DNA of 64,000 nucleotides from Nitrospiraceae bacterium. GTDB lineage: Bacteria > Nitrospirota > Nitrospiria > Nitrospirales > Nitrospiraceae. The notes below the pieces were generated by a model. That model was not told the origin of the DNA. It did no database searches and saw only the letters and a list, made by a program, of their open reading frames with translations. The translations under genes and the position numbers were made by a program. How positions within the stretch are numbered: position 1 is the first letter of the stretch; each line of letters starts with the position of its first letter. Location of the stretch: contig CAKKRE010000002.1 of NCBI GenBank assembly GCA_919902505.1, positions 62,001 to 126,000 of the forward strand, in the 5' to 3' direction. Below, one piece after another: positions 10,136 through 27,303 of the stretch.

Positions 10136-10466
10136 GTCACCCGATCCCGCTTTTCTCCACGACCGCCGCTCCATCGAACGGCTCACCATCCAAGCGCTGG
10201 AGGCCGCTCGGGCCGGTGACTGGGATCAAGTCGACGCCTGTTATAGCGCGCGTGGACTCAGCCTGACCTCCTGTGCGCTCGATCGCCCATTCGCGCAACA
10301 GCTGCTGAGGATGGATGAAGAGGTTCGCTCGGCCATCCTGGTGGCGCAAGCCGCGATATCCGGCCAATTGGCCGATGCCGCTCAGGTGAAACGACACCTG
10401 CGCCAATTACGTGAAAGTAGCGGACAACTGGCCTCCGAACGTGTCACGATACATCGTGAAGCCTGA
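10122..10466 (+). CDS. FliT-like flagellar chaperone (putative)
   Basis: 114 residues, helical and acidic in the middle, placed directly after fliS with a 14-base overlap. That is the position and size of fliT, the FliD export chaperone. Sequence similarity to FliT is weak by eye; the helices LTIQALEAARAGDWDQVDACY and FAQQLLRMDEEVRSAILVAQ fit the expected four-helix pattern. The assignment rests mainly on context. Confidence 0.6.
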   Translation: MSAAKSPDPAFLHDRRSIERLTIQALEAARAGDWDQVDACYSARGLSLTSCALDRPFAQQLLRMDEEVRSAILVAQAAISGQLADAAQVKRHLRQLRESSGQLASERVTIHREA

Positions 10467-10521
10467 CGCGCCTGAGTCCGGGCGACAGGCTGGCCCTGTT
10501 CCTCCACCGCAGAGGTTCGGT

Positions 10522-11133
10522 ATGACTTCGTCACATGACCGGTTTCGTCGCTCCCCCCCCACCGACTTCAAGAATGATGACCGCCGCGAATGGTTACGCA
10601 TCGACGATCGCTTGCTGCTCGAGTACCGTCGTTTCGACGAACCAGCCGAGGCTATGAACGCCCATCTCCCTCCGGCGACAGAAGATACGATCGCCACGGC
10701 GGTGTCGAAACCGACTATCGATCTGCTGGTCCGGGCAGGGGAGACCTTTGCAGGCTCGCCGCTATTACCCTGGGTCTCCAAAATCGACTGGATGCTGGAG
10801 ACGATTCTCAAGTCCCTCGTGAAAAGTCATCCCGGCAGTGTCGCCATCGCACGGCTGACCGATGTGGATATCAGCGCCGGCGGGCTGGGTTTCGATACCC
10901 CGCGTCAGTTTCAGGCAGAGGACCTGTTGGTGCTGAAGGTGATCCTACCGCCGTTCAGCATGATCGAGGCGACGGCGCGCATCATTCGGGTGACTCCGGC
11001 CGAGAGGGACTCGACGGGCTATCATGTCGCCACACAGTTTGTGGAGTTGGGCGGGGACGAGCAGGAGCTGATTATCCGGCATATTCTGCAGGTGCAGGCC
11101 GAACGCCTGCGGGCGAGAAGAGCGGCACATTAG
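10522..11133 (+). CDS. PilZ domain protein (likely c-di-GMP receptor)
   Basis: The start at 10522 is chosen for the AGAGGT ribosome site 5 bases upstream; the frame is open to 10411. About 203 residues. RREWLR near the N-terminus supplies the RxxxR motif and DISAGGLGF the (D/N)xSxxG motif that bind c-di-GMP in PilZ. The two motifs are about 100 residues apart instead of the usual 20-30, with a helical insert between (KIDWMLETILKSLVKSH). A role in controlling motility by c-di-GMP is inferred from its place in the flagellar cluster. The gene runs convergent with flhG. Confidence 0.75.
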   Translation: MTSSHDRFRRSPPTDFKNDDRREWLRIDDRLLLEYRRFDEPAEAMNAHLPPATEDTIATAVSKPTIDLLVRAGETFAGSPLLPWVSKIDWMLETILKSLVKSHPGSVAIARLTDVDISAGGLGFDTPRQFQAEDLLVLKVILPPFSMIEATARIIRVTPAERDSTGYHVATQFVELGGDEQELIIRHILQVQAERLRARRAAH

Positions 11134-12651: not shown

Positions 12652-13515
12652 ATGGCTGACACAAATACGGCAAGAAAAGTGGAAGTCGCCGCGCCCAAGC
12701 TGTCTCCCGACACGTTCAAACAGCTGAGGGATTTGATCTATGAAAAGACCGGCATTTTTTTTCAGGACAATAAGACCTATCTGTTGGAGAGCCGATTACT
12801 GCCTCGATTGCATGCCTGCCGGTGCCAGACCTTTGACAGTTATCTGAACTTCCTGCGTTTCGACGCCTATCGGGATCGTGAGGTCACCGAACTTTATACG
12901 GTCATCACAACGAACGAGACCTATTTCTTTCGCGACGAGGCTCAGCTTGAGAGCTTCATGAAGGTCATGGTTCCGGAAGTGATGAAGACCAACGCGGGGA
13001 CGAAACAGATCCGCATTTGGAGTGCAGCCTGCTCGACCGGAGATGAACCCTATACCCTCGCGCTGTTGTTGCGGGACTATCCGCCGCTCGCCGGCTGGAC
13101 CATCGACATTCTCGCGACAGATATCAGCGAAAATGTCCTGACCATCGCGCGCACCGCGACCTACAGCTCCCATTCCCTGCGCAAAGTGCCTCCGGCTATG
13201 CTCGCAAAGTATTTCACCGGGAAGAAAGAGCAGCAGACGCTCGTGCCACAGGTGAAGGACATGGTGCGGTTCATGAACGTGAACCTCTACGACCGCCCCA
13301 GACTCAAGCTGATTCGTGGCATCGACATCGTGTTCTGTCGAAACTGCCTGATCTATTTCGACGAGAAAGCCAAAGCACAGATCGTCTCGGATCTACGTGA
13401 TGCCTTACGCCCCAAGGGCTATTTGATGATCGGATTTTCCGAGACGTTGCACGACACCACCGGGCATTTCAAAACCATTCATGCAGACCGTTCCGTTATT
13501 CATGAGAAACAGTAA
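12652..13515 (+). CDS. cheR: Chemotaxis protein methyltransferase
   Basis: 287 residues, normal for CheR. The N-terminal helical domain (DTFKQLRDLIYEKTGIFF) precedes the SAM-dependent methyltransferase domain with IWSAACSTGDEPYTLALLL (SAM loop), DILATDIS and VFCRNCLIYFD. CheR methylates receptor glutamates, counter to CheB. It is the first gene of the che operon; cheY starts 12 bases later. Confidence 0.95.
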   Translation: MADTNTARKVEVAAPKLSPDTFKQLRDLIYEKTGIFFQDNKTYLLESRLLPRLHACRCQTFDSYLNFLRFDAYRDREVTELYTVITTNETYFFRDEAQLESFMKVMVPEVMKTNAGTKQIRIWSAACSTGDEPYTLALLLRDYPPLAGWTIDILATDISENVLTIARTATYSSHSLRKVPPAMLAKYFTGKKEQQTLVPQVKDMVRFMNVNLYDRPRLKLIRGIDIVFCRNCLIYFDEKAKAQIVSDLRDALRPKGYLMIGFSETLHDTTGHFKTIHADRSVIHEKQ

Positions 13516-13527
13516 GGAGGATGAGTC

Positions 13528-13908
13528 ATGCCAGCCGATCCAAACATGAAGATTCTCGTCGTCGATGACATGTCCACCATGCGCCGCATCGTCAAGAACA
13601 TCCTGAAGCAGCTGGGTTTCAACAATTTGGAAGAAGCTGAAAACGGTCAGGAGGCGCTGACCAAGCTGAAGGCGGACACCTATGGGTTCGTGGTGTCCGA
13701 TTGGAACATGCCGGTCATGATGGGCATCGATATGTTGCGCGCCATTCGTGCGGACGAAAAACTGAAGAAAATCCCTGTGCTGATGGTCACAGCCGAAGCG
13801 CAGAAAGAGAATCTGATGGAGGCCGTCCAGGCCGGCGTCAGCAACTATGTCGTCAAGCCGTTCACCGCCGAGACGATGCAGGAGAAGATCAACAAGATTT
13901 TCAAGTAA
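13528..13908 (+). CDS. cheY: Chemotaxis response regulator CheY
   Basis: 126 residues, a single receiver domain. Asp13/Asp14 form the acidic pocket, Asp58 in [10 protein letters not shown] is the phosphorylation site, Thr88 and Lys110 are the switch residues. The ribosome site TAAGGAGG supports the start at 13528. Phospho-CheY binds the flagellar switch. cheZ follows 26 bases after its stop. Confidence 0.96.
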
Positions 13909-13934
13909 TCGGCTCTTAACCGGTGAGGGTCACG

Positions 13935-14585
13935 ATGGCACAACCACAGGCGGCAGCAAAAACGCAGAATGTGGTCAATGAGGATGAGCCGGCGGAGAAG
14001 GCACCCGACACGAAGCTCTACGAGGAGCTCGGAGAGTTGGCCCGGTTCATCGATACCACGATGAAAACGCTCTCGGAATTCAGCGCCCCGGTCAATGCAT
14101 CCACGGAGCAGTTGCCGCAAGCGCAGACCCATCTCTTGAATCTCAAAACTCAGACCGAACAGGGGACGCATCGAGTGATGCTGGAAGTGGAGGCCATCCA
14201 GGACAACCACGCCCAGATCAGCAAGATGCTGAAGGAGATGACACAGACGTTCCAGCAAGCGAAGGTGTCCCCCGCGTTCATACAACAGATGCAAACCCTG
14301 GGGCAGGCCCTCGGACAGGACGACAAGCGGCTGCTGGATATCATGACGGCCCTGTCGTTCCAGGACCTGGTGGCGCAGAGCGTCAATAAACTCGTTACGA
14401 TTCTGGATGAAGTCGAGCATAAGCTGCTTCAACTCGTGGTGGTCTTCGGTCCCTATCAAAAACAGGCTGCGAAGACCGATCAGGGCAAAGCCAGCGAAAT
14501 GTTGAAGCAACTCGAAGCGACCAAGAACACGTCGATGGACCAGGATCTCGCGGACGAAATCTTGAAGCAATTCGGTTTTAACTGA
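13935..14585 (+). CDS. cheZ: CheY-phosphate phosphatase CheZ
   Basis: The start at 13935 is preferred to a GTG 12 bases upstream because GAGGG lies just before it. About 216 residues. The long hairpin helices carry ALSFQDLVAQSVNKL, in which Asp144 and Gln148 match the two catalytic residues of the E. coli CheZ motif QDLTGQ. The C-terminal DQDLADEILKQFGFN matches the CheY-binding tail. CheZ removes phosphate from CheY. It is typical of Proteobacteria and less usual elsewhere. Middle gene of the che operon. Confidence 0.93.
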   Translation: MAQPQAAAKTQNVVNEDEPAEKAPDTKLYEELGELARFIDTTMKTLSEFSAPVNASTEQLPQAQTHLLNLKTQTEQGTHRVMLEVEAIQDNHAQISKMLKEMTQTFQQAKVSPAFIQQMQTLGQALGQDDKRLLDIMTALSFQDLVAQSVNKLVTILDEVEHKLLQLVVVFGPYQKQAAKTDQGKASEMLKQLEATKNTSMDQDLADEILKQFGFN

Positions 14586-14593
14586 GGTGGGTT

Positions 14594-16462
14594 ATGAGCG
14601 ATGAAATGCAGGAAATACTCAACGACTTCCTGACCGAATCCAATGAAATGCTGGAAGTGTTGGACCAGCGATTCGTCACGCTGGAATCCGATCCCAACAA
14701 TACGGATCTCCTGAACGAAATCTTTCGTGCGATGCATAGCATGAAAGGATCCGCCGGCTTTCTGGGTTTCAACCATCTGGTGGACGTTGCGCATCGCGGG
14801 GAGAATATTCTCAACAAGCTGCGCCAGGCCGAAATGGCCGTCAATCCGGCGATCATCAGCGTCATTCTTGAAACCATCGATGTCATCAAAGCGATCATGG
14901 CCGACATTCGCGAATCGGGCACCGACAACCACGTCGCGACGGCAGCCATTGCATCCAAGCTGGACGATATCATTAACGGTACGGTAAGCACCGCGGCCCC
15001 AGCCGCCGCACCGAAAGTCGAAGCCGCCGCACCCGTACAGGAGACTCCTGCCCTTCCGCCGCCAACACTGGGCGAGATTCTGGTGAATGAAGGCCTGGCC
15101 TCCAAAGATCAGGTTCTTGATGCGCTTAACGCCCAACAGCACCAGCCGGATCCGAAGACACCTCTGGGAGAGATTCTTCTCCAGGCCAAAGCCATTACCG
15201 AGCGCGCCCTCGATCAGGCACTTCATAAGCAGGAGAAGCAGCCCAAACCGGCCGAAGAAGACGCCACGATTCGGGTAGAAACCAAACGCCTTGACAGTGT
15301 GATGAATCTGGTCGGGGAGTTGGTCTTGGGTCGCAATCGTCTGATCAAGATCGGGACGCAGTTGGAACAAAATCATGAGGCCGATCCCCAAGTGCGCGTC
15401 TTGAGCGAAACGCTCGCGCAACTCAATCTGGTGACCACGGACCTGCAGCTCGCCGTCATGAAGACCCGTATGCTGCCGATCAAGAAGGTGTTTGCCAAGT
15501 TGCCTCGCATGGTGCGTGACCTCTCGCAGAAGCTGAACAAGCAGGTTCATCTCGAAATGCGCGGCGAGGAAACCGAACTGGATAAGTCCGTCGCCGACGA
15601 AATCGGAGACCCGCTCGTGCACTTGGTGCGCAACGCCATCGATCATGGCATTGAAACTCCGGCAGAACGGCAGGCAAAGGGCAAGCAGGCAGGAGGGCAG
15701 CTGACCATTGCCGCCAGCCAGGAAGGCAACAGCATCGTCATTCGCATCAATGACGACGGTCGCGGCATTCAGGTCGAGAAGATCAAAGCCAAGGCGCTGG
15801 CCAAAGGTTTAATCAGTGAAGCCGAACTCGCGACGATGGAACATCGCGAAGTCTTGAACCTCATTTTTCTTCCGGGATTCAGCACGGCAGAACAGGTGAC
15901 CGATGTGTCGGGTCGTGGCGTGGGCATGGATGTGGTACGCACCAACATTCGAAAGATCAACGGCAGCGTGGATTTGGAATCCGAGCCCGGCAAAGGCAGC
16001 CAGGTCATCATCAAGCTGCCGCTGACCATTGCGATCATTCAGGCGTTGATGGTCGAAGTTGAACGCTCGATTTTCGCCATCCCACTGAGCACCGTGATCG
16101 AAGCGGTCCTGATCTCACGTTCGGACATCAAAACGATCAACGGGCGTGAAGTGCTGCATTTGCGAGATCGTGTCCTGCCGCTGATCCGCCTGGCGCAGGA
16201 ATTTGATATCCCGACAGACAAAGAGCGGGAACGGTTTTATGTGGTCGTCGCCGCGTTGGGCGATCGACGAGTCGGCGTGGTGGTCGACGAACTGCGCTCG
16301 CAGGAGGAAGTCGTCATCAAGTCCATCTGGGATTACCTGGAAACGATCAAAGGCGTGTCAGGAGCCACCATTACCGGCGAGGGTAAGGTCGTGTTGATTC
16401 TGGACACTTCGGAATTGGTCCAGAACGCCCAGGCCTGGCACAACTCCGGGATGGCCGTCTAA
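14594..16462 (+). CDS. cheA: Chemotaxis histidine kinase with MshEN-like repeats
   Basis: 622 residues. Order: Hpt domain (His48 in FRAMHSMKGSAGF), Ala/Pro linker, two repeats of an MshEN-like motif (LGEILVNEGLASKDQVLDAL at 159-178 and LGEILLQAKAITERALDQAL at 191-210), dimerisation helices, HATPase domain (N box about 341-352, G1 DDGRGI about 387-392, G2 GRGVGMDVV), CheW-like domain to the end. The usual CheY-binding P2 domain is replaced by the repeats. MshEN domains in GspE/MshE bind c-di-GMP, but here the Arg before LG is missing in both copies. The kinase core is complete. Confidence 0.94.
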   Translation: MSDEMQEILNDFLTESNEMLEVLDQRFVTLESDPNNTDLLNEIFRAMHSMKGSAGFLGFNHLVDVAHRGENILNKLRQAEMAVNPAIISVILETIDVIKAIMADIRESGTDNHVATAAIASKLDDIINGTVSTAAPAAAPKVEAAAPVQETPALPPPTLGEILVNEGLASKDQVLDALNAQQHQPDPKTPLGEILLQAKAITERALDQALHKQEKQPKPAEEDATIRVETKRLDSVMNLVGELVLGRNRLIKIGTQLEQNHEADPQVRVLSETLAQLNLVTTDLQLAVMKTRMLPIKKVFAKLPRMVRDLSQKLNKQVHLEMRGEETELDKSVADEIGDPLVHLVRNAIDHGIETPAERQAKGKQAGGQLTIAASQEGNSIVIRINDDGRGIQVEKIKAKALAKGLISEAELATMEHREVLNLIFLPGFSTAEQVTDVSGRGVGMDVVRTNIRKINGSVDLESEPGKGSQVIIKLPLTIAIIQALMVEVERSIFAIPLSTVIEAVLISRSDIKTINGREVLHLRDRVLPLIRLAQEFDIPTDKERERFYVVVAALGDRRVGVVVDELRSQEEVVIKSIWDYLETIKGVSGATITGEGKVVLILDTSELVQNAQAWHNSGMAV

Positions 16463-16559
16463 CGGTCGTCACCGGCGGGTAAGCAGAGACAGGTGAGGGA
16501 TAGTCGCCTGCGTAGGCTACCGCGATAGATGAACAGCGACGTGCGAGATCGGAGGAAGT

Positions 16560-17540
16560 ATGTCCACTCTCATCAATGAAATCGATGCTCGAACCAGATT
16601 GGCCGGGGCCAATCAGATGGAATTGCTGCTGTTTAAACTCGGTACGAACGAAATCTTCGGGATCAACGTGTTCAAGGTGCGTGAAGTGATGAAATTACCG
16701 GAGCTCACCCAGATTCCGGAGGCAGACAGCCGCATCGTGGGGATGGCCAATATTCGTGGAATCATGGTTCCCGTGGTGGGCCTTAAACGCAGCTTGGGAT
16801 TGGGAACGGAAAACGAGGGTCAACCGGGAGGTCCGGCAGGGACACATCCCTATTTGATCGTGTCCGAGTACAACGGAAGTTTGCAGGGCTTTCTCGTCGC
16901 AGGAGTCGATCGAATCATTCGCTTCTCATGGTCAGCCATCAAGACGCCACCGGCGATCGTCAGAGAAAACAACAAAGGCGCGGTCACGGCCGTCACGATG
17001 CTTGAGGATGGACGCATGGTTCTGATTCTGGATGTCGAGAAAGTGCTGAACGACATTTGTCCCCGTTCGGACGATGAGGTGTTTGCCGGTATGGTGGCCG
17101 CTCCGGCGCTTAAATCAAAGTGCATGTTGTTTGCCGACGATTCATCCGTGGCTCGGATGCAGATTCGTAAAGCGTTGGAACGTCTCGAGATGTCCTACAT
17201 CATGGCGACCACCGGAGGGGAGGCCTGGGCGAAGCTGCAAGCACTCGCAGATCAGGCGACGGCGGAAGGCAAGGAGCGGGTGGATCAGATTCAATGCATT
17301 CTCAGCGACATTGAGATGCCGGAAATGGATGGATTCACATTGACCAAGCACATTCGTGCCGACCCGAGACTGGCCCACTTGCCTGTCATGTTGCACTCTT
17401 CGTTGACCGGTGCCTGCAACATGGAAAAGGGCAAGGCAGTCGGGGCGACCGACTATATCACGAAATTCGACGCCAAAATGTTGGGAGAGAAACTCGCCTT
17501 CCATATAGACGAGTCCAACCAGCAAGCGAAGGCGGCATAA
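16560..17540 (+). CDS. cheV: Chemotaxis coupling protein CheV
   Basis: 326 residues: a CheW-like domain (about 15-165; LLLFKLGTNEIFGINVFKVREV) fused to a receiver domain (about 180-320). LFADDSSVARMQ is the acidic pocket and ILSDIEMPEMDG holds the phosphorylated Asp. CheV couples receptors to CheA and may help adaptation through its own phosphorylation. GGAGGA just before the ATG is a strong ribosome site. A separate cheW is downstream, so two couplers are present. Confidence 0.94.
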   Translation: MSTLINEIDARTRLAGANQMELLLFKLGTNEIFGINVFKVREVMKLPELTQIPEADSRIVGMANIRGIMVPVVGLKRSLGLGTENEGQPGGPAGTHPYLIVSEYNGSLQGFLVAGVDRIIRFSWSAIKTPPAIVRENNKGAVTAVTMLEDGRMVLILDVEKVLNDICPRSDDEVFAGMVAAPALKSKCMLFADDSSVARMQIRKALERLEMSYIMATTGGEAWAKLQALADQATAEGKERVDQIQCILSDIEMPEMDGFTLTKHIRADPRLAHLPVMLHSSLTGACNMEKGKAVGATDYITKFDAKMLGEKLAFHIDESNQQAKAA

Positions 17541-17580
17541 GCACTGAATTCAGGACCGACCGCTGATCCGAAGACGCACT

Positions 17581-17607
17581 TAAGCTTTCGGAACAGACGG
17601 CCGATGT
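17581..17607 (+). promoter_or_regulatory. Possible sigma-28 promoter before cheB
   Basis: TAAG, exactly 15 bases, then GCCGATGT. The spacing and six of eight bases of the -10 element fit sigma-28. It is in the cheV-cheB gap and would start transcription about 8 bases before the preferred cheB start at 17622, giving almost no leader. It could serve the cheB-mcp-cheW part as a separate flagellar-class unit. Weaker than the site before fliC. Confidence 0.4.
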
Positions 17608-17621
17608 ATCGGCTAAAGGTT

Positions 17622-18719
17622 ATGGCACTTCCACTGTCTCAGGCACAGCGTCCAGCGAATCCGGTCCGCGTTCTGGTCGTGGACGACTCGGCCTTCATGC
17701 GAAAAAGTCTGACGACCATGCTCGAAGAGGGCAAACAGATCCACGTAGTGGGTGTGGCGAGAAACGGTGAGGAAGCCGTTCAACAGGTTCAGCAGTTGAA
17801 GCCCGATGTCGTCACGATGGATGTGGAAATGCCGGGAATGACGGGACTGCAGGCGTTGCAGCAAATCATGTCGAAGTTCCCCGTGCCGGTCATTATGGTC
17901 AGTTCGATCACCGTGGAAGGCGCTCAAGAAACCCTGCAAGCACTGGAATGGGGCGCGGTGGATTTTGTGCCGAAACAACTCGATGGTGTCGTATCCAAGA
18001 TTGCGGACATTCAACAACAGCTGGTGTCCAAAGTGCTGGCCGCCAGATATGCCGGCGCGAAACTGAAAAAGATTCCGATGACGGGCGTCACGAAGTCGTC
18101 TGCCATGCAGGTCAAAGCGTTGAGCAGCCAATCGGTGAGTGTGACTCGCGGCACCAAGCTCATTGCGATCGGATGCTCCACGGGGGGGCCGCAGGCCTTG
18201 TTTGAAATCATGCCGATGATCCCGGCGGATTGTCCGGCTGGAATCGTCATCGTCCAGCACATGCCCAAATTCTTTACCAAGCCCTTCGCCGAACGCCTGA
18301 ATAGCCTATGTCCTTTGGATGTGCGTGAAGCCGTCGAGGGGGATGAAGTGAAACCCGGCCGCGTGCTCGTCGCTCCCGGCGGGATGCAGTTCCGCATCGT
18401 CAAAAAAACGATTACGAGTTCAGTCGTCAAGTTGTCGCCTAATGTGGAAAACCATCCTCACGCTCCGTCGGTCGACATCATGTTGAAATCCGTGGCGGCG
18501 CTGTATGGCGAACGCACGATCGGGGTGATCTTAACCGGAATGGGCCACGACGGATTGGAAGGAATGAAAGCGATCAAGGCGGCGAAGGGGCGAACGGTGG
18601 CGCAAGACGAAGCCTCGAGTATCGTGTACGGCATGCCGAAAGCCGTAGTGGAAGCCGGGTGCGCAGAAAAAGTGGTTTCGCTCTCCAAAGTCATCGGCGA
18701 AATCATGAATATGGTGTGA
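17622..18719 (+). CDS. cheB: Chemotaxis methylesterase/deamidase CheB
   Basis: About 365 residues from the ATG at 17622; an ATG at 17604 is in frame but overlaps the possible -10 element. The receiver domain holds Asp67 in VTMDVEMPGMTG. The C-terminal methylesterase domain carries its triad: Ser186 in IAIGCSTGGPQAL, His213 in VIVQHMPKFF and Asp310 in GVILTGMGHDGLEG. CheB removes methyl groups from receptors after phosphorylation by CheA. Confidence 0.94.
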   Translation: MALPLSQAQRPANPVRVLVVDDSAFMRKSLTTMLEEGKQIHVVGVARNGEEAVQQVQQLKPDVVTMDVEMPGMTGLQALQQIMSKFPVPVIMVSSITVEGAQETLQALEWGAVDFVPKQLDGVVSKIADIQQQLVSKVLAARYAGAKLKKIPMTGVTKSSAMQVKALSSQSVSVTRGTKLIAIGCSTGGPQALFEIMPMIPADCPAGIVIVQHMPKFFTKPFAERLNSLCPLDVREAVEGDEVKPGRVLVAPGGMQFRIVKKTITSSVVKLSPNVENHPHAPSVDIMLKSVAALYGERTIGVILTGMGHDGLEGMKAIKAAKGRTVAQDEASSIVYGMPKAVVEAGCAEKVVSLSKVIGEIMNMV

Positions 18720-18767
18720 CAGGAATCGTCAACTCAATCGTTCACACATGGAGAGGTAGGAGGAGTT

Positions 18768-20453
18768 ATGGGGAGCATGATGAAAAGTATGACGATCGGC
18801 CCGAAGTTCATCTTGTCGATTTCCGTGGCGGCGTTCGTCGCCATTGCTATCGGGCTCTTCGTGTTGTATCAGCAGGAAGAAGACAAGATGGACATGATGT
18901 TGTCCGGGCGTGCCCAGGTTCTGTCTCAGCAGATCATGATCGGGCGCGCCTATATCGCCACCAACTATGCCGCCAAGATCAAAAAGTCGAAAGCCGGTTC
19001 TGAGATTCAGGTGCTCAAAGACCATAGCGGCAACCCGGATGCCATTCCGGTGCCTGCTACTGCGGTTCGAGAAATGGGCGAGGAGGCCAGCCGGACAGGC
19101 CTGTATAACGCCAGGCTGGTGAGTCAGAATCCCGTGAACCCGGCCAACTCTCCGAAGGACAATTTTGAGAACGAGGCCATCAGGGCCATCATGGGCGGAG
19201 CAGAGAGTTACGCTCGCCGGGATGATGTCAACGGAGTGCCGACCTATCGTCGTGCCATGATAGATAAGGCGACGACCGCTGCCTGCATCAGCTGCCATAC
19301 CAGCAACCAGGTCGGCGACACGCTCGGCATATTGAGCGTGTCTCTGCCGATGGGGCCGGCGATTGTACTCTCCAATAAGTCTATGTGGCAGACCGGCGGA
19401 CTGATGGCCGGTATCGTTGTGATCATCATGGTGATCACGTACTTCCTGCTCCGCAACATTGTGCTGCAGCCGTTGGCCAAAATGAGCGACATTTTGCGCG
19501 ACATTGCGAAGGGCGAGGGCGACCTCACCAAGCGTGTGCCTTGTGAGGGCAACGACGAAATCGCGCACATGGGCAAGTACTTCAACGAGTTTATCGAAAA
19601 GTTACAGCACATGATTAAGAAGGTCGCTCACGTGACGGACAAAGTCGCTTCCGCCTCGGTTGAATTGTCAGCGACCGCCGAGGAGATCTCGAAGGGCACC
19701 GACACCTTGACGTCGCGCGCGTCTCAAACTGCCGCTGCGGTGGAGGAGATGAATGCGACCGTCGGACAAGTTGCGCAGAACTCCGGCAAAGCAGCCAGTC
19801 TGGCGCAAGACACCGTGAAAACCGCTCAAGAGGGTGGAACCGTGGTGTCGAGCACCATCTCCGGTATGCAACAGCTGTCTGAAGCTGTGTCGAATTCCGC
19901 AACCATCATCTCTGATTTGGGCAAATCGTCCGACCAGATCGGCGAGATTGTGCGAACGATCGAAGACATCGCCGACCAGACCAATTTGCTGGCCTTGAAC
20001 GCGGCCATTGAAGCGGCTCGAGCCGGTGAACAGGGTCGGGGATTCGCCGTGGTGGCCGATGAAGTCCGGAAACTTGCGGAACGGACCACCAAAGCGACCA
20101 AGGAAATCGGCGACATGATCCGCCAGATCCAGCACGATACACGGGGCGCTGTGGACTCGATGCAGCAGGGTACCCAGAAAGTCACGGCCGGTGTGGATCT
20201 GGTCAATAAGACCGGTGACGCCCTGTCGCAGATCGTGCGCATGGTCTCAGAGAGCGCCGATATGATCCGACAGATCGCCGTGGCATCGGAAGAGCAATCT
20301 GTGGCGACGCAGCAGATCGCGAGCGACATCGAAAACGTGGCGAAGGTCACTAAAGAGTCGTCGTCCGGCGCACATGAGTCGGCGAAGGCAAGCCAGGACC
20401 TGAGCCAGTTGGCGGTCGAATTGCAGGGGATCGTGGGTGGATTCAAGCTCTAA
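18768..20453 (+). CDS. Methyl-accepting chemotaxis protein with Tll0287-like haem-c sensor
   Basis: 561 residues. TM1 is about 13-34 and TM2 about 209-228; a periplasmic region of about 175 residues lies between. It contains the Tll0287/DUF3365 pattern ([14 protein letters not shown] ... [14 protein letters not shown]) and ends with [10 protein letters not shown], a CxxCH c-type haem motif (Cys173, Cys176, His177). A HAMP domain follows, then the signalling hairpin ([20 protein letters not shown]). No CheR-docking pentapeptide is at the C-terminus (ends GGFKL). The motif suggests redox, NO or O2 sensing; the ligand is unknown. It lies inside the che operon between cheB and cheW. Confidence 0.92.
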
Positions 20454-20479
20454 GCAGCAACCACGAGAAGGAGCCCAGC

Positions 20480-20998
20480 ATGAGTGCGACTGAACAACAG
20501 GTGCAATCTCACTACCAGGCGACCGCAGAAAATTCTGCGGACCGTCTGGAGGAGAAGAACGGTGACGATCTGCTGCAGTTCGTGATTTGTCTGATCGGGA
20601 GCGAAGAGTTCGCGGTGGATGTCCTCAGTGTGCAGGAGATCAACCGGATCGTGGAGGTCACGCGAGTTCCAAAGACGCCCTCCTATGTGGAGGGCGTCAT
20701 CAATCTGCGTGGCCGCATTATTCCCGTGCTGGACCTCCGGAAACTCTTCGGCCTCAGCGGGGCCCAACAGACCACTCAGACGCGAATCGTGGTGGTCTCG
20801 GTGCAGGCACGACTGGTCGGGCTGATCGTGGATTCAGTGGAAGAGGTGTTGCGGGTACCGAGAAGCGCCATTGAGCCGCCGCCTTCGGTCGGCACAATGG
20901 CCGGTGCTGAATTCACCCAGGGAGTCGGGCGGATCGATGACCGCCTCCTCATTCTGGTGGATCTGAGCCGGCTGCTCTTGGCCCGGGAAGCAGCGTAA
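20480..20998 (+). CDS. cheW: Chemotaxis coupling protein CheW
   Basis: 172 residues with a 30-residue polar N-terminal extension before the CheW domain. LQFVICLIGSEEFAVDVLSV, then VEGVINLRGRIIPVLDLRK and LVGLIVDSVEEVLRVP are the standard segments. CheW bridges receptors and CheA. It is the last gene of the che operon. Confidence 0.94.
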   Translation: MSATEQQVQSHYQATAENSADRLEEKNGDDLLQFVICLIGSEEFAVDVLSVQEINRIVEVTRVPKTPSYVEGVINLRGRIIPVLDLRKLFGLSGAQQTTQTRIVVVSVQARLVGLIVDSVEEVLRVPRSAIEPPPSVGTMAGAEFTQGVGRIDDRLLILVDLSRLLLAREAA

Positions 20999-24782: not shown

Positions 24783-26048
24783 GTGGCTGAGCCAGCGCAT
24801 CGCATCGAGGATGAACCTCTTGCCGGTAAGGCCGCCAAGCCTACGCCGGTCATCCTTCTCGTCGACGACGATGAGATGACCCGTATCAGTATGGCCGGGC
24901 GGCTGAAACGGTTGGGCTACCGTGTCATCGAAGCCGGCGATGGAGTTGCCGGATTGGCAGCTGTCCGCGCACAGCGTCCGGATCTGGTGATCCTCGATTG
25001 GATGATGCCGGGTCTGGACGGCCCTAGCGTCTGCGAGGCGATCCGTGCGGATGGGGAGTTACGGTCCAGCCAAGTCGTGCTCATGACCGCGCACGACCAG
25101 CCCGGACAAATTGCGGAGGGTCTCTCGCGCGGGGCCGACGATTTTCTCAGCAAGGCGGCGAGCAAGCAGGAAGTCCTGGCACGGGTGCAGGCCAGCCTCC
25201 GATCCAGTGCGCTGGTCCGTGAAATCGAACGCACGCGCGACGATCTCGATCGTTCTCATCGGCTGCTGTCCGCAAAGCAAGCCGAACTGGAGAGCGAACT
25301 GCAATCGGCTGCGGAATTCGTGCGCGCGCAGCTTCCTCTGCCCGGCATGCCGGCTCCGGGAATCGGCATGCAGTGGGCCTACCAACCGTCTCTCGCTTTG
25401 GGCGGCGACTTGTTTCAGGTCGGCGCCTGGGGCTCCGAGACGCTCGGTCTCTATATTCTCGATGCGTCGGGCCACGGTGTGGCCGCGGCCTTGCGCGCCG
25501 TCGCATTGATGAGTTTTTTGCGTGAAGAGAATCTCGCGAAAGCCGTCGGAAGTTTCGATCCGGGGGCCATCATCACGGAAGCGAACCGTCGGTTTCCGCT
25601 GACCCAGGACGGGGAATATTTCACCCTGTGGGTCGGGCGTCTGCATCTTCCGTCGCAGACCGTATCGTATGCAGCAGCGGGGCACTGCGGCGCATTTCTC
25701 CATTCCCTGCAAGGGGCCTCGCAATGGTTATCGTCGGCGAGCCTCCCGCTCGGGTTCGACCCGACCATCACCTTCGACAGTGCGACCGCACAATTGCGGC
25801 CTCGGGATCGTCTGTATCTCCTGAGTGATGGGATCTATGAAGCCCCGTCGCCGACCGGGGAGCTGTGGGGCAGGGAACGCTTGCAGGCCACACTGGAAAG
25901 CCACCGTAACCACACGTTGGCGCACAGCATCGGAGATACCATGACCACCGCTCGACAATGGCTAGGGGGCGACATTTTCCCCGACGACGTGGCGCTCCTC
26001 GGCGTCGAAGTGTTGGACAGCTCAGGTCCGGCAAAGGAGAAGTCGTAA
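24783..26048 (+). CDS. Response regulator with PP2C (SpoIIE/RsbU-type) phosphatase output
   Basis: 421 residues. Receiver domain about 20-140 (ILLVDDDEMTRISMAGRLKR; phospho-Asp in LVILDWMMPGLDG), coiled-coil linker about 150-185, then a PP2C domain (about 195-415). Metal-binding positions are seen in LALGGDLF, ILDASGHGVAAAL, LLSDGIYEA and FPDDVALLGVEV. In GGDLFQ the usual second aspartate after GGD is Gln, a change that may affect metal binding. It probably dephosphorylates one or both STAS proteins when its receiver is phosphorylated. Confidence 0.9.
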   Translation: MAEPAHRIEDEPLAGKAAKPTPVILLVDDDEMTRISMAGRLKRLGYRVIEAGDGVAGLAAVRAQRPDLVILDWMMPGLDGPSVCEAIRADGELRSSQVVLMTAHDQPGQIAEGLSRGADDFLSKAASKQEVLARVQASLRSSALVREIERTRDDLDRSHRLLSAKQAELESELQSAAEFVRAQLPLPGMPAPGIGMQWAYQPSLALGGDLFQVGAWGSETLGLYILDASGHGVAAALRAVALMSFLREENLAKAVGSFDPGAIITEANRRFPLTQDGEYFTLWVGRLHLPSQTVSYAAAGHCGAFLHSLQGASQWLSSASLPLGFDPTITFDSATAQLRPRDRLYLLSDGIYEAPSPTGELWGRERLQATLESHRNHTLAHSIGDTMTTARQWLGGDIFPDDVALLGVEVLDSSGPAKEKS

Positions 26049-26407
26049 TGGATGGTCAACCCGTCATGGACCTGGCGTCCGCCATGGAACGGTTCGACGG
26101 CGATCAGGACTTGTTTCTGACCCTGGCCGAGATGTTCCTCGAGCGTTCACCCGCAACACTCACTGCAATCCAGACAGCCCTCGCCGACAAGAATCTTCCG
26201 ATGCTGGCCAAGGAAGCGCACAAACTGAAAGGATCGGCCATGGAGTTCTGTGCCCGCCCGACCGTGGCCGCCGCGGGGCAGCTTGAAGAATCGGCCCGAC
26301 GGTCGGCCCTGAACGAGATCGCAGCAATCGGAGAGCGGGTCCATGCCGAAGTTCAGCGATTGACGGCCGCCCTGCAGGTGATCATCGAGAAGGGATTTCC
26401 TTCATGA
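26048..26407 (+). CDS. Histidine phosphotransfer (Hpt) domain protein
   Basis: 119 residues from the ATG at 26048, which overlaps the preceding TAA by one base (TAATG). The phospho-His is in AKEAHKLKGSAMEF. A free Hpt protein between two receiver proteins suggests a phosphorelay: a hybrid kinase elsewhere passes phosphate through this protein to the receivers at 24783 and/or 26404. No kinase is coded in this operon. Confidence 0.88.
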   Translation: MDGQPVMDLASAMERFDGDQDLFLTLAEMFLERSPATLTAIQTALADKNLPMLAKEAHKLKGSAMEFCARPTVAAAGQLEESARRSALNEIAAIGERVHAEVQRLTAALQVIIEKGFPS

Positions 26408-27303
26408 CACGTCCCGCCTCATCCAGAACACTGTTGATCGTAGAGCCTTGCGCCGAAACACTGGCCATGGTCATGGAACAGGCGAAAATGCGAGGCCTCT
26501 CGACTCTGACAGCGCCGGATCCGCAGGTAGCCTTGGCCATGATGGACATGGCGTCTCCGGATGTCCTCCTGACCGATCTCTTTCTTCCCCAGCCGGACGG
26601 ATTCAGGCTCATCCGCGAAGCGCTCAAACGCAGCGCACGGACGGCCGTCATCGCGACCACCGAAGCGGGAAATGAACAGGCCCTTCTGGAAGCCGTTCGA
26701 GCCGGTGCAGGAGATTGTCTGTACAAACCGGCCCTGGCAGAAGACCTGGGCATGGCCCTGGATCGGGCACTTCAAAGAATCCCCCGGACCATCGACGATG
26801 TCCCGGGCATCGAGCAGTTGGAGTATCGCCTGGTCATCGGCAGCGATCCCGGCGACGTGGAATCCTGCGTGACCTGGCTGATTGAGAGTACGGCTATGGG
26901 GCTTGCTGAAACCCAACGGCTGCACCTTCGCACGACCTTGATCGAGTTGATCGTCAATGCAGTGGAACATGGCAGCCTTGAAATCTTTTATCATGAAAAA
27001 CATGAGGCGTTGAGTACCGACCGGTTTGAGGCCTTGATCGAAGAACGCCGCCGCAACCCCCGGTTTGCCACGCGTCGCGTCATCGTCCGGGCGCTGTATG
27101 ACAAGTTGCACCGTCGCATGCGGTATGCGATCACGGATGAAGGAAACGGCTTCACCTGGAACCGCTTCCTGACGCGATCGGATCAACCCTGCGACAGTCG
27201 CGACACAAACGGGCGCGGTGTGTTTCTTGCCAAAGCCTTCTTCCCCGATCTGACCTACAATGAGCGTGGCACTGAAGTCACGTTTTCGGTGGCGCTGCCG
27301 TAG
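26404..27303 (+). CDS. Receiver plus HATPase (RsbW-like) regulator
   Basis: 299 residues that start in an ATGA overlap. A receiver domain (about 8-125; phospho-Asp in VLLTDLFLPQPDG) is joined to a HATPase_c domain with N box ELIVNAVEHG, G1 DEGNGF and G2 NGRGVFLAKAF, as in anti-sigma factor kinases. A His kinase dimerisation domain is absent. It is the likely STAS-protein kinase of the switch. Its stop codon (TAG, 27301-27303) is the first three bases of repeat copy C. Confidence 0.88.
   Translation: MTRPASSRTLLIVEPCAETLAMVMEQAKMRGLSTLTAPDPQVALAMMDMASPDVLLTDLFLPQPDGFRLIREALKRSARTAVIATTEAGNEQALLEAVRAGAGDCLYKPALAEDLGMALDRALQRIPRTIDDVPGIEQLEYRLVIGSDPGDVESCVTWLIESTAMGLAETQRLHLRTTLIELIVNAVEHGSLEIFYHEKHEALSTDRFEALIEERRRNPRFATRRVIVRALYDKLHRRMRYAITDEGNGFTWNRFLTRSDQPCDSRDTNGRGVFLAKAFFPDLTYNERGTEVTFSVALP

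Follow-up and report, generated by a model that had tools for sequence, protein, structure and literature searches.

The chemotaxis histidine kinase CheA encoded in the window, i.e., the whole 64,000-nucleotide stretch of Nitrospiraceae DNA that was analyzed, contains a module of two MshEN-type motifs between its P1 and P3 domains, and sequence and profile comparisons support that this module is homologous to the c-di-GMP-binding half of MshEN. With slightly more confidence than doubt, we propose that the module may still bind c-di-GMP and thereby make the P1-P3 connection more ordered or stiffer, by which kinase output would be changed. The gene, its domains and its surroundings are as follows.

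10411..11133, + strand: PilZ-domain protein (c-di-GMP receptor family; Pfam PF07238, 4.7e-10), near the che cluster and listed for context only
12652..20998, + strand: chemotaxis gene cluster with genes for cheR, a cheY-like response regulator, cheZ, cheA, cheV-like, cheB, MCP and cheW, all but the response regulator assigned by Pfam
13528-13908, + strand: cheY-like response regulator, named from its sequence and not by Pfam
14594..16462, + strand: cheA, chemotaxis histidine kinase of 622 aa; Nitrospira
14612..14890, + strand: P1 (Hpt) domain, aa 7-99, with an HSMKGS phosphorylation-site motif (Pfam PF01627, 2.6e-16)
14984..15064, + strand: Ala/Pro-rich variable linker, aa 131-157, pN/pS 0.57-0.63
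15065..15136, + strand: MshEN motif I, TLGEILVNEGLASKDQVLDALNAQ, aa 158-181 (NF053729)
15137..15160, + strand: inter-motif linker, aa 182-189, 8 residues
15161..15232, + strand: MshEN motif II, PLGEILLQAKAITERALDQALHKQ, aa 190-213 (NF053729), pN/pS 0.008-0.034
15263..15466, + strand: P3 dimerization domain (H-kinase_dim), aa 224-291 (Pfam PF02895, 9.5e-17)
15608..16027, + strand: P4 ATPase domain (HATPase), aa 339-478 (Pfam PF02518, 8e-19)
16040..16429, + strand: P5 CheW-like domain, aa 483-612 (Pfam PF01584, 3.6e-27)

P1, P3, P4 and P5 are all matched by Pfam and, together with the surrounding che genes, which are followed by motA and motB, identify the protein as a CheA kinase. Among named genomes its relatives are CheAs of Nitrospira, up to 94% identical over the full length, and a CheA search of the window's genome found this protein and a 1129-aa CheA-like protein only. 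No P2 or other CheY-binding family was matched by Pfam in the window CheA, and DUF4388 reached only 0.0046 on the module region, under its Pfam cut-off. Among the neighboring genes, the MCP of the cluster (18768-20453) combines a Tll0287-like sensor region (Pfam, 1.2e-15) with a CISCH (CxxCH) motif and, judging from the latter, may carry a c-type heme. The PilZ protein upstream of the cluster possesses RxxxR- and DxSxxG-like motifs (REWLR and DISAGG), while 24783-27303 encodes a REC-SpoIIE phosphatase and, after it, a REC protein that bears an anti-sigma-type ATPase domain, a possible partner-switch pair.

Searched against the whole CheA, the model NF053729 ("c-di-GMP-binding domain, MshE-related") matches with an E value of 5e-12 and 45.4 bits, above its curated cut-off of 38 bits; the score rises to 53.3 bits with neighbors in frame, and CheA is the sole locus of the window's genome above the cut-off. 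The two motifs agree with the consensus at 9 of 10 and 8 of 10 scored positions, respectively, and shuffling aa 101-225 20,000 times never yielded an equally good motif pair. As both peptides are also encoded, the claim of an earlier note that CheA carries two MshEN-like repeats stands, and so does their placement between the Hpt and kinase parts, given that aa 158-213 follow P1 (aa 7-99) and precede P3 (aa 224-291). Of the span given there, 15067-15230, the start is no codon start, and the first frame of the literal span gives stops. Motifs I and II are 8 residues apart, a spacing that spans 1-13 residues in Nitrospirota CheAs, and in MshE a 5-residue linker joins the two 24-residue motifs (PMC5013675). 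The ligand-contact set of L2, G3, L17, L21 and Q24 is complete in motif II, while motif I has V at position 17. PF05157, the Pfam model named MshEN, gave no match on CheA. In a 903-aa ATPase frame of the same genome, the PF05157 match adjoins the NF053729 match on its downstream side, and in the isolated ATPase peptide it begins past the two motifs. PF05157 is therefore silent on CheA because it describes the C-terminal MshEN subdomain, and the part of MshEN present in CheA is consequently the ligand-binding N-terminal half alone.

When compared alone with the PDB, the 67-residue region finds GSPII-C of Thermus PilF as its best match (E value 1.4e-7), followed by MshE (0.014) and PilB proteins. 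A profile of 22 CheA modules gives 4e-35 for PilF, 2e-12 for PilB and 5e-12 for MshE, with unrelated proteins never better than 0.3. The alignment with GSPII-C of T. thermophilus PilF (PDB chain 6f8l_G, residues 304-360) covers the two motifs from end to end; like CheA, this domain has Pro as the first residue of motif II and keeps Q24 in motifs I and II. GSPII-C differs from CheA in having Arg at position 1 of motif I, where CheA has Thr, in a third motif that follows and in being part of a traffic ATPase rather than a kinase. MshE of V. cholerae (PDB 5HTL) likewise has two 24-residue motifs with the L2, G3, L21 and Q24 pattern, but both its motifs start with Arg, its linker is shorter and it has the C-terminal subdomain, and the isolated N-terminal half of its MshEN binds c-di-GMP with a KD of 0.35 uM (PMC5013675). 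From a shallow alignment of 15 near-identical sequences, AlphaFold confidently predicted a helix-turn-helix for motif I (pLDDT 92-94) and a single long helix for motif II, so that the four-helix bundle was not reproduced; Foldseek with this region model found no MshEN and no PDB match. Full-length CheA, modeled from 14-15 close sequences, gave poor confidence and likewise no fold match. In the other motif copies position 13 is mostly Ser/Thr, and 25 of 75 have Pro at position 14, residues that by the rules of helix capping argue for a helix start there; the AlphaFold models are therefore counted neither as support for the MshEN fold nor as its refutation.

Among 14 Nitrospira CheAs, pN/pS drops from the linker preceding the module to 0.10-0.16 in motif I and to its lowest values in motif II, compared with 0.036-0.066 in P1 and 0.039-0.077 in P3-P4. 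The module is thus under strong purifying selection, and motif II more so than the catalytic core. Across Nitrospirota CheAs, Gly3, Leu6 and Gln24 are invariant in 75 of 75 distinct motif copies; positions 1, 3 and 24 were masked in the search model, and some selection bias may remain in this count as the training copies were picked with Gly3 and Gln24. In characterized MshEN proteins the guanine is read by the backbone amides of Gly3 and position 4, and Gln24 touches the phosphate-ribose part of the ligand (PMC5013675, PMC11731258, PMC12002112). XpsE and PilF GSPII-A, which are folded and non-binding, have lost such contact residues (PMC5013675, PMC12002112). The two pilus/secretion ATPases of the window's genome with Pfam MshEN matches (L001 and L002) have, by eye, lost both Gly3 and Gln24, which are mostly retained in the PilBs of other Nitrospirota; CheA may therefore hold the only intact MshEN of this genome. 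The Lys that motif II has as its tenth residue was considered as a sign of lost function and rejected, for Lys, Asn or Ser is common there in PilB motifs of Nitrospirota that otherwise match the consensus.

The Arg that normally precedes the LG pair is absent from both repeats, as the earlier note had stated: position 1 is Thr in motif I and Pro in motif II, neither Arg nor Lys, and these residues are fixed in the genus. A survey of 39 distinct module-bearing Nitrospirota CheAs found Arg in both motifs of only two. Arg or Lys occurs in at least one motif of 30, and neither in the remaining nine, which include the window's lineage (Thr/Pro, Thr/Ala or Gln/Pro). L037, the nearest outgroup, combines Arg in the first motif with Pro in the second, and the position 1 pairs vary by CheA lineage (Q/P, R/P, P/K, P/R and E/L). 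PilF GSPII-B binds c-di-GMP at 6 nM with Lys and Leu at position 1, a change to Arg weakens its binding, and the affinity of GSPII-C, whose motif II begins with Pro, is close to that of MshEN (PMC11731258). The extended consensus reads R/K/L at position 1 (PMC11731258), and a relaxed search motif of 2016 allowed R, K, P and N (PMC5013675). In a GSPII-A construct of PilF, binding was abolished by a Ser as the first residue of motif II (PMC12002112), and the Thr of motif I is similar to that Ser. The missing Arg had been taken as a sign that binding may be lost. Its absence does mark the lineage, but it argues little for loss and does not decide binding, because GSPII-B (Lys/Leu) and GSPII-C (Pro) bind.

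P1 of CheA is tethered by flexible linkers to the dimeric core and must reach P4 for phosphorylation. A bundle that is ordered by a ligand within this tether could therefore restrict or favor the access of P1 to P4. We propose that one four-helix module of the MshEN_N type, made of the two motifs and without the C-terminal subdomain, would lie in the P1-P3 linker and seat c-di-GMP between motifs I and II. Bound c-di-GMP would order or stiffen the connection and so make it a hinge between P1 and the kinase core; the stiffened tether would alter the access of P1 to the ATP site of P4 or to CheY/CheB, and the output of flagellar chemotaxis would be set directly by the cellular c-di-GMP level. The window's genome has five GGDEF matches and one EAL match, which together with the PilZ gene indicate c-di-GMP signaling near flagellar genes. 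c-di-GMP binding, and both the effect on kinase activity and its sign, are what we infer. The NF053729 match, GSPII-C of PilF as the best PDB match, the retention of Gly3 and Gln24 and the selection on motif II above that on the kinase core make binding the most likely reading of the sequence, against which stand the lack of Arg/Lys at position 1, a linker of 8 rather than 5 residues and an AlphaFold motif II without the MshEN fold. The wider proposal, that CheA itself is a c-di-GMP receptor in which arginine-free binding gates P1-to-kinase phosphotransfer in Nitrospira and also in other Nitrospirota, among which the module would have been gained or lost repeatedly, is made tentatively, at somewhat short of an even chance.

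An alternative that we regard as unlikely, if far from negligible, is that c-di-GMP binding was lost in the Nitrospira lineage and that the module is a helical protein-docking or dimerization unit, which, for a CheA without P2, might for instance recruit CheY, CheB or a partner in the array. The absence of Arg/Lys at position 1 in this lineage, when most module-bearing CheAs have one and L037 has Arg in motif I, would fit such a loss, and a motif II that is nearly frozen over its full length is expected of an interface. An interface of this kind would, however, leave unexplained that Gly3 and Gln24 are kept in all copies, as the fold dispenses with them in PilF GSPII-A and XpsE (PMC12002112, PMC5013675). 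Little credence is given to the idea that the module binds another small molecule, such as a different cyclic dinucleotide, with specificity shifted by the residues at position 1. That base-stacking position is fixed as Thr/Pro in the genus yet differs among CheA lineages, and MshEN also binds cGAMP, albeit weakly (PMC5013675), but guanine recognition is by the backbone amides of positions 3-4, with Gly3 retained, and the genome encodes enzymes of c-di-GMP, GGDEF being the sole type of dinucleotide cyclase looked for.

c-di-GMP acts on chemotaxis via receptors, adaptors and the motor. It reportedly enters the chemotaxis pathway through Tlp1, a PilZ chemoreceptor of Azospirillum, and through MapZ-CheR1 of P. 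aeruginosa; unlike the CheA module, these are said to use PilZ domains and to act at the receptor or at CheR. If the proposed hinge is real, the receptor module would govern the output of the entire array from within the kinase, its central enzyme; the bacteria concerned are nitrite oxidizers of importance in soils and wastewater. Binding is directly testable with the purified 65-residue region, and related CheAs, which differ naturally at position 1, form a ready-made series for assessing the contribution of the stacking residue. The type of fusion is not new, as CheA was named among the MshEN-associated domains by Wang et al. in 2016 (PMC5013675); the MshEN-CheAs listed there are fusions of the same kind, for which the text of that paper gives no member, position or test. 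A search of the open literature, outside which most subscription papers lie, found no report of any MshEN-CheA having been tested.

The repeats had also been described as standing in place of P2. This CheA indeed has no P2 that Pfam recognizes, but related CheAs without the module lack a recognizable P2 as well: Pfam found none in L043 and L072, and in the sister group of the window's clade (mainly L040-L056) the linker is long, seems unstructured and contains neither the module nor a recognizable P2. The module was therefore not simply put at a former P2 site. Sister CheAs of family f11 manage with an unstructured linker of similar length at the module's place, so that no module is required there, but that the module is a mere structured spacer from P1 to P3, with no ligand or partner, is hardly probable because invariant G3, L6 and Q24 and the low pN/pS of motif II would be unexpected. 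On a quick CheA tree (84 cores, 402 columns, SH-aLRT support only, mixture model off), the presence and absence of the motif pair takes five changes, at least four of them forced by well-supported branches, with gain and loss not distinguishable. In the longer, second CheA type (L077-L079 and L097-L109), 22 of the 39 modules have their motifs only 1 residue apart, compared with 5 in MshE. Such spacing may preclude an MshE-type bundle within one chain, and pairing of motifs between the two chains of a dimer is a possibility in these longer CheAs. The segment that precedes the module in them looked like a P2 domain, an assignment that was not confirmed by Pfam or PDB searches. In other Nitrospira genomes, a second MshEN-bearing CheA lies about 10 kb from the first (L079, L104 and L105, on G115:C15, G094:C5 and G055:C1).
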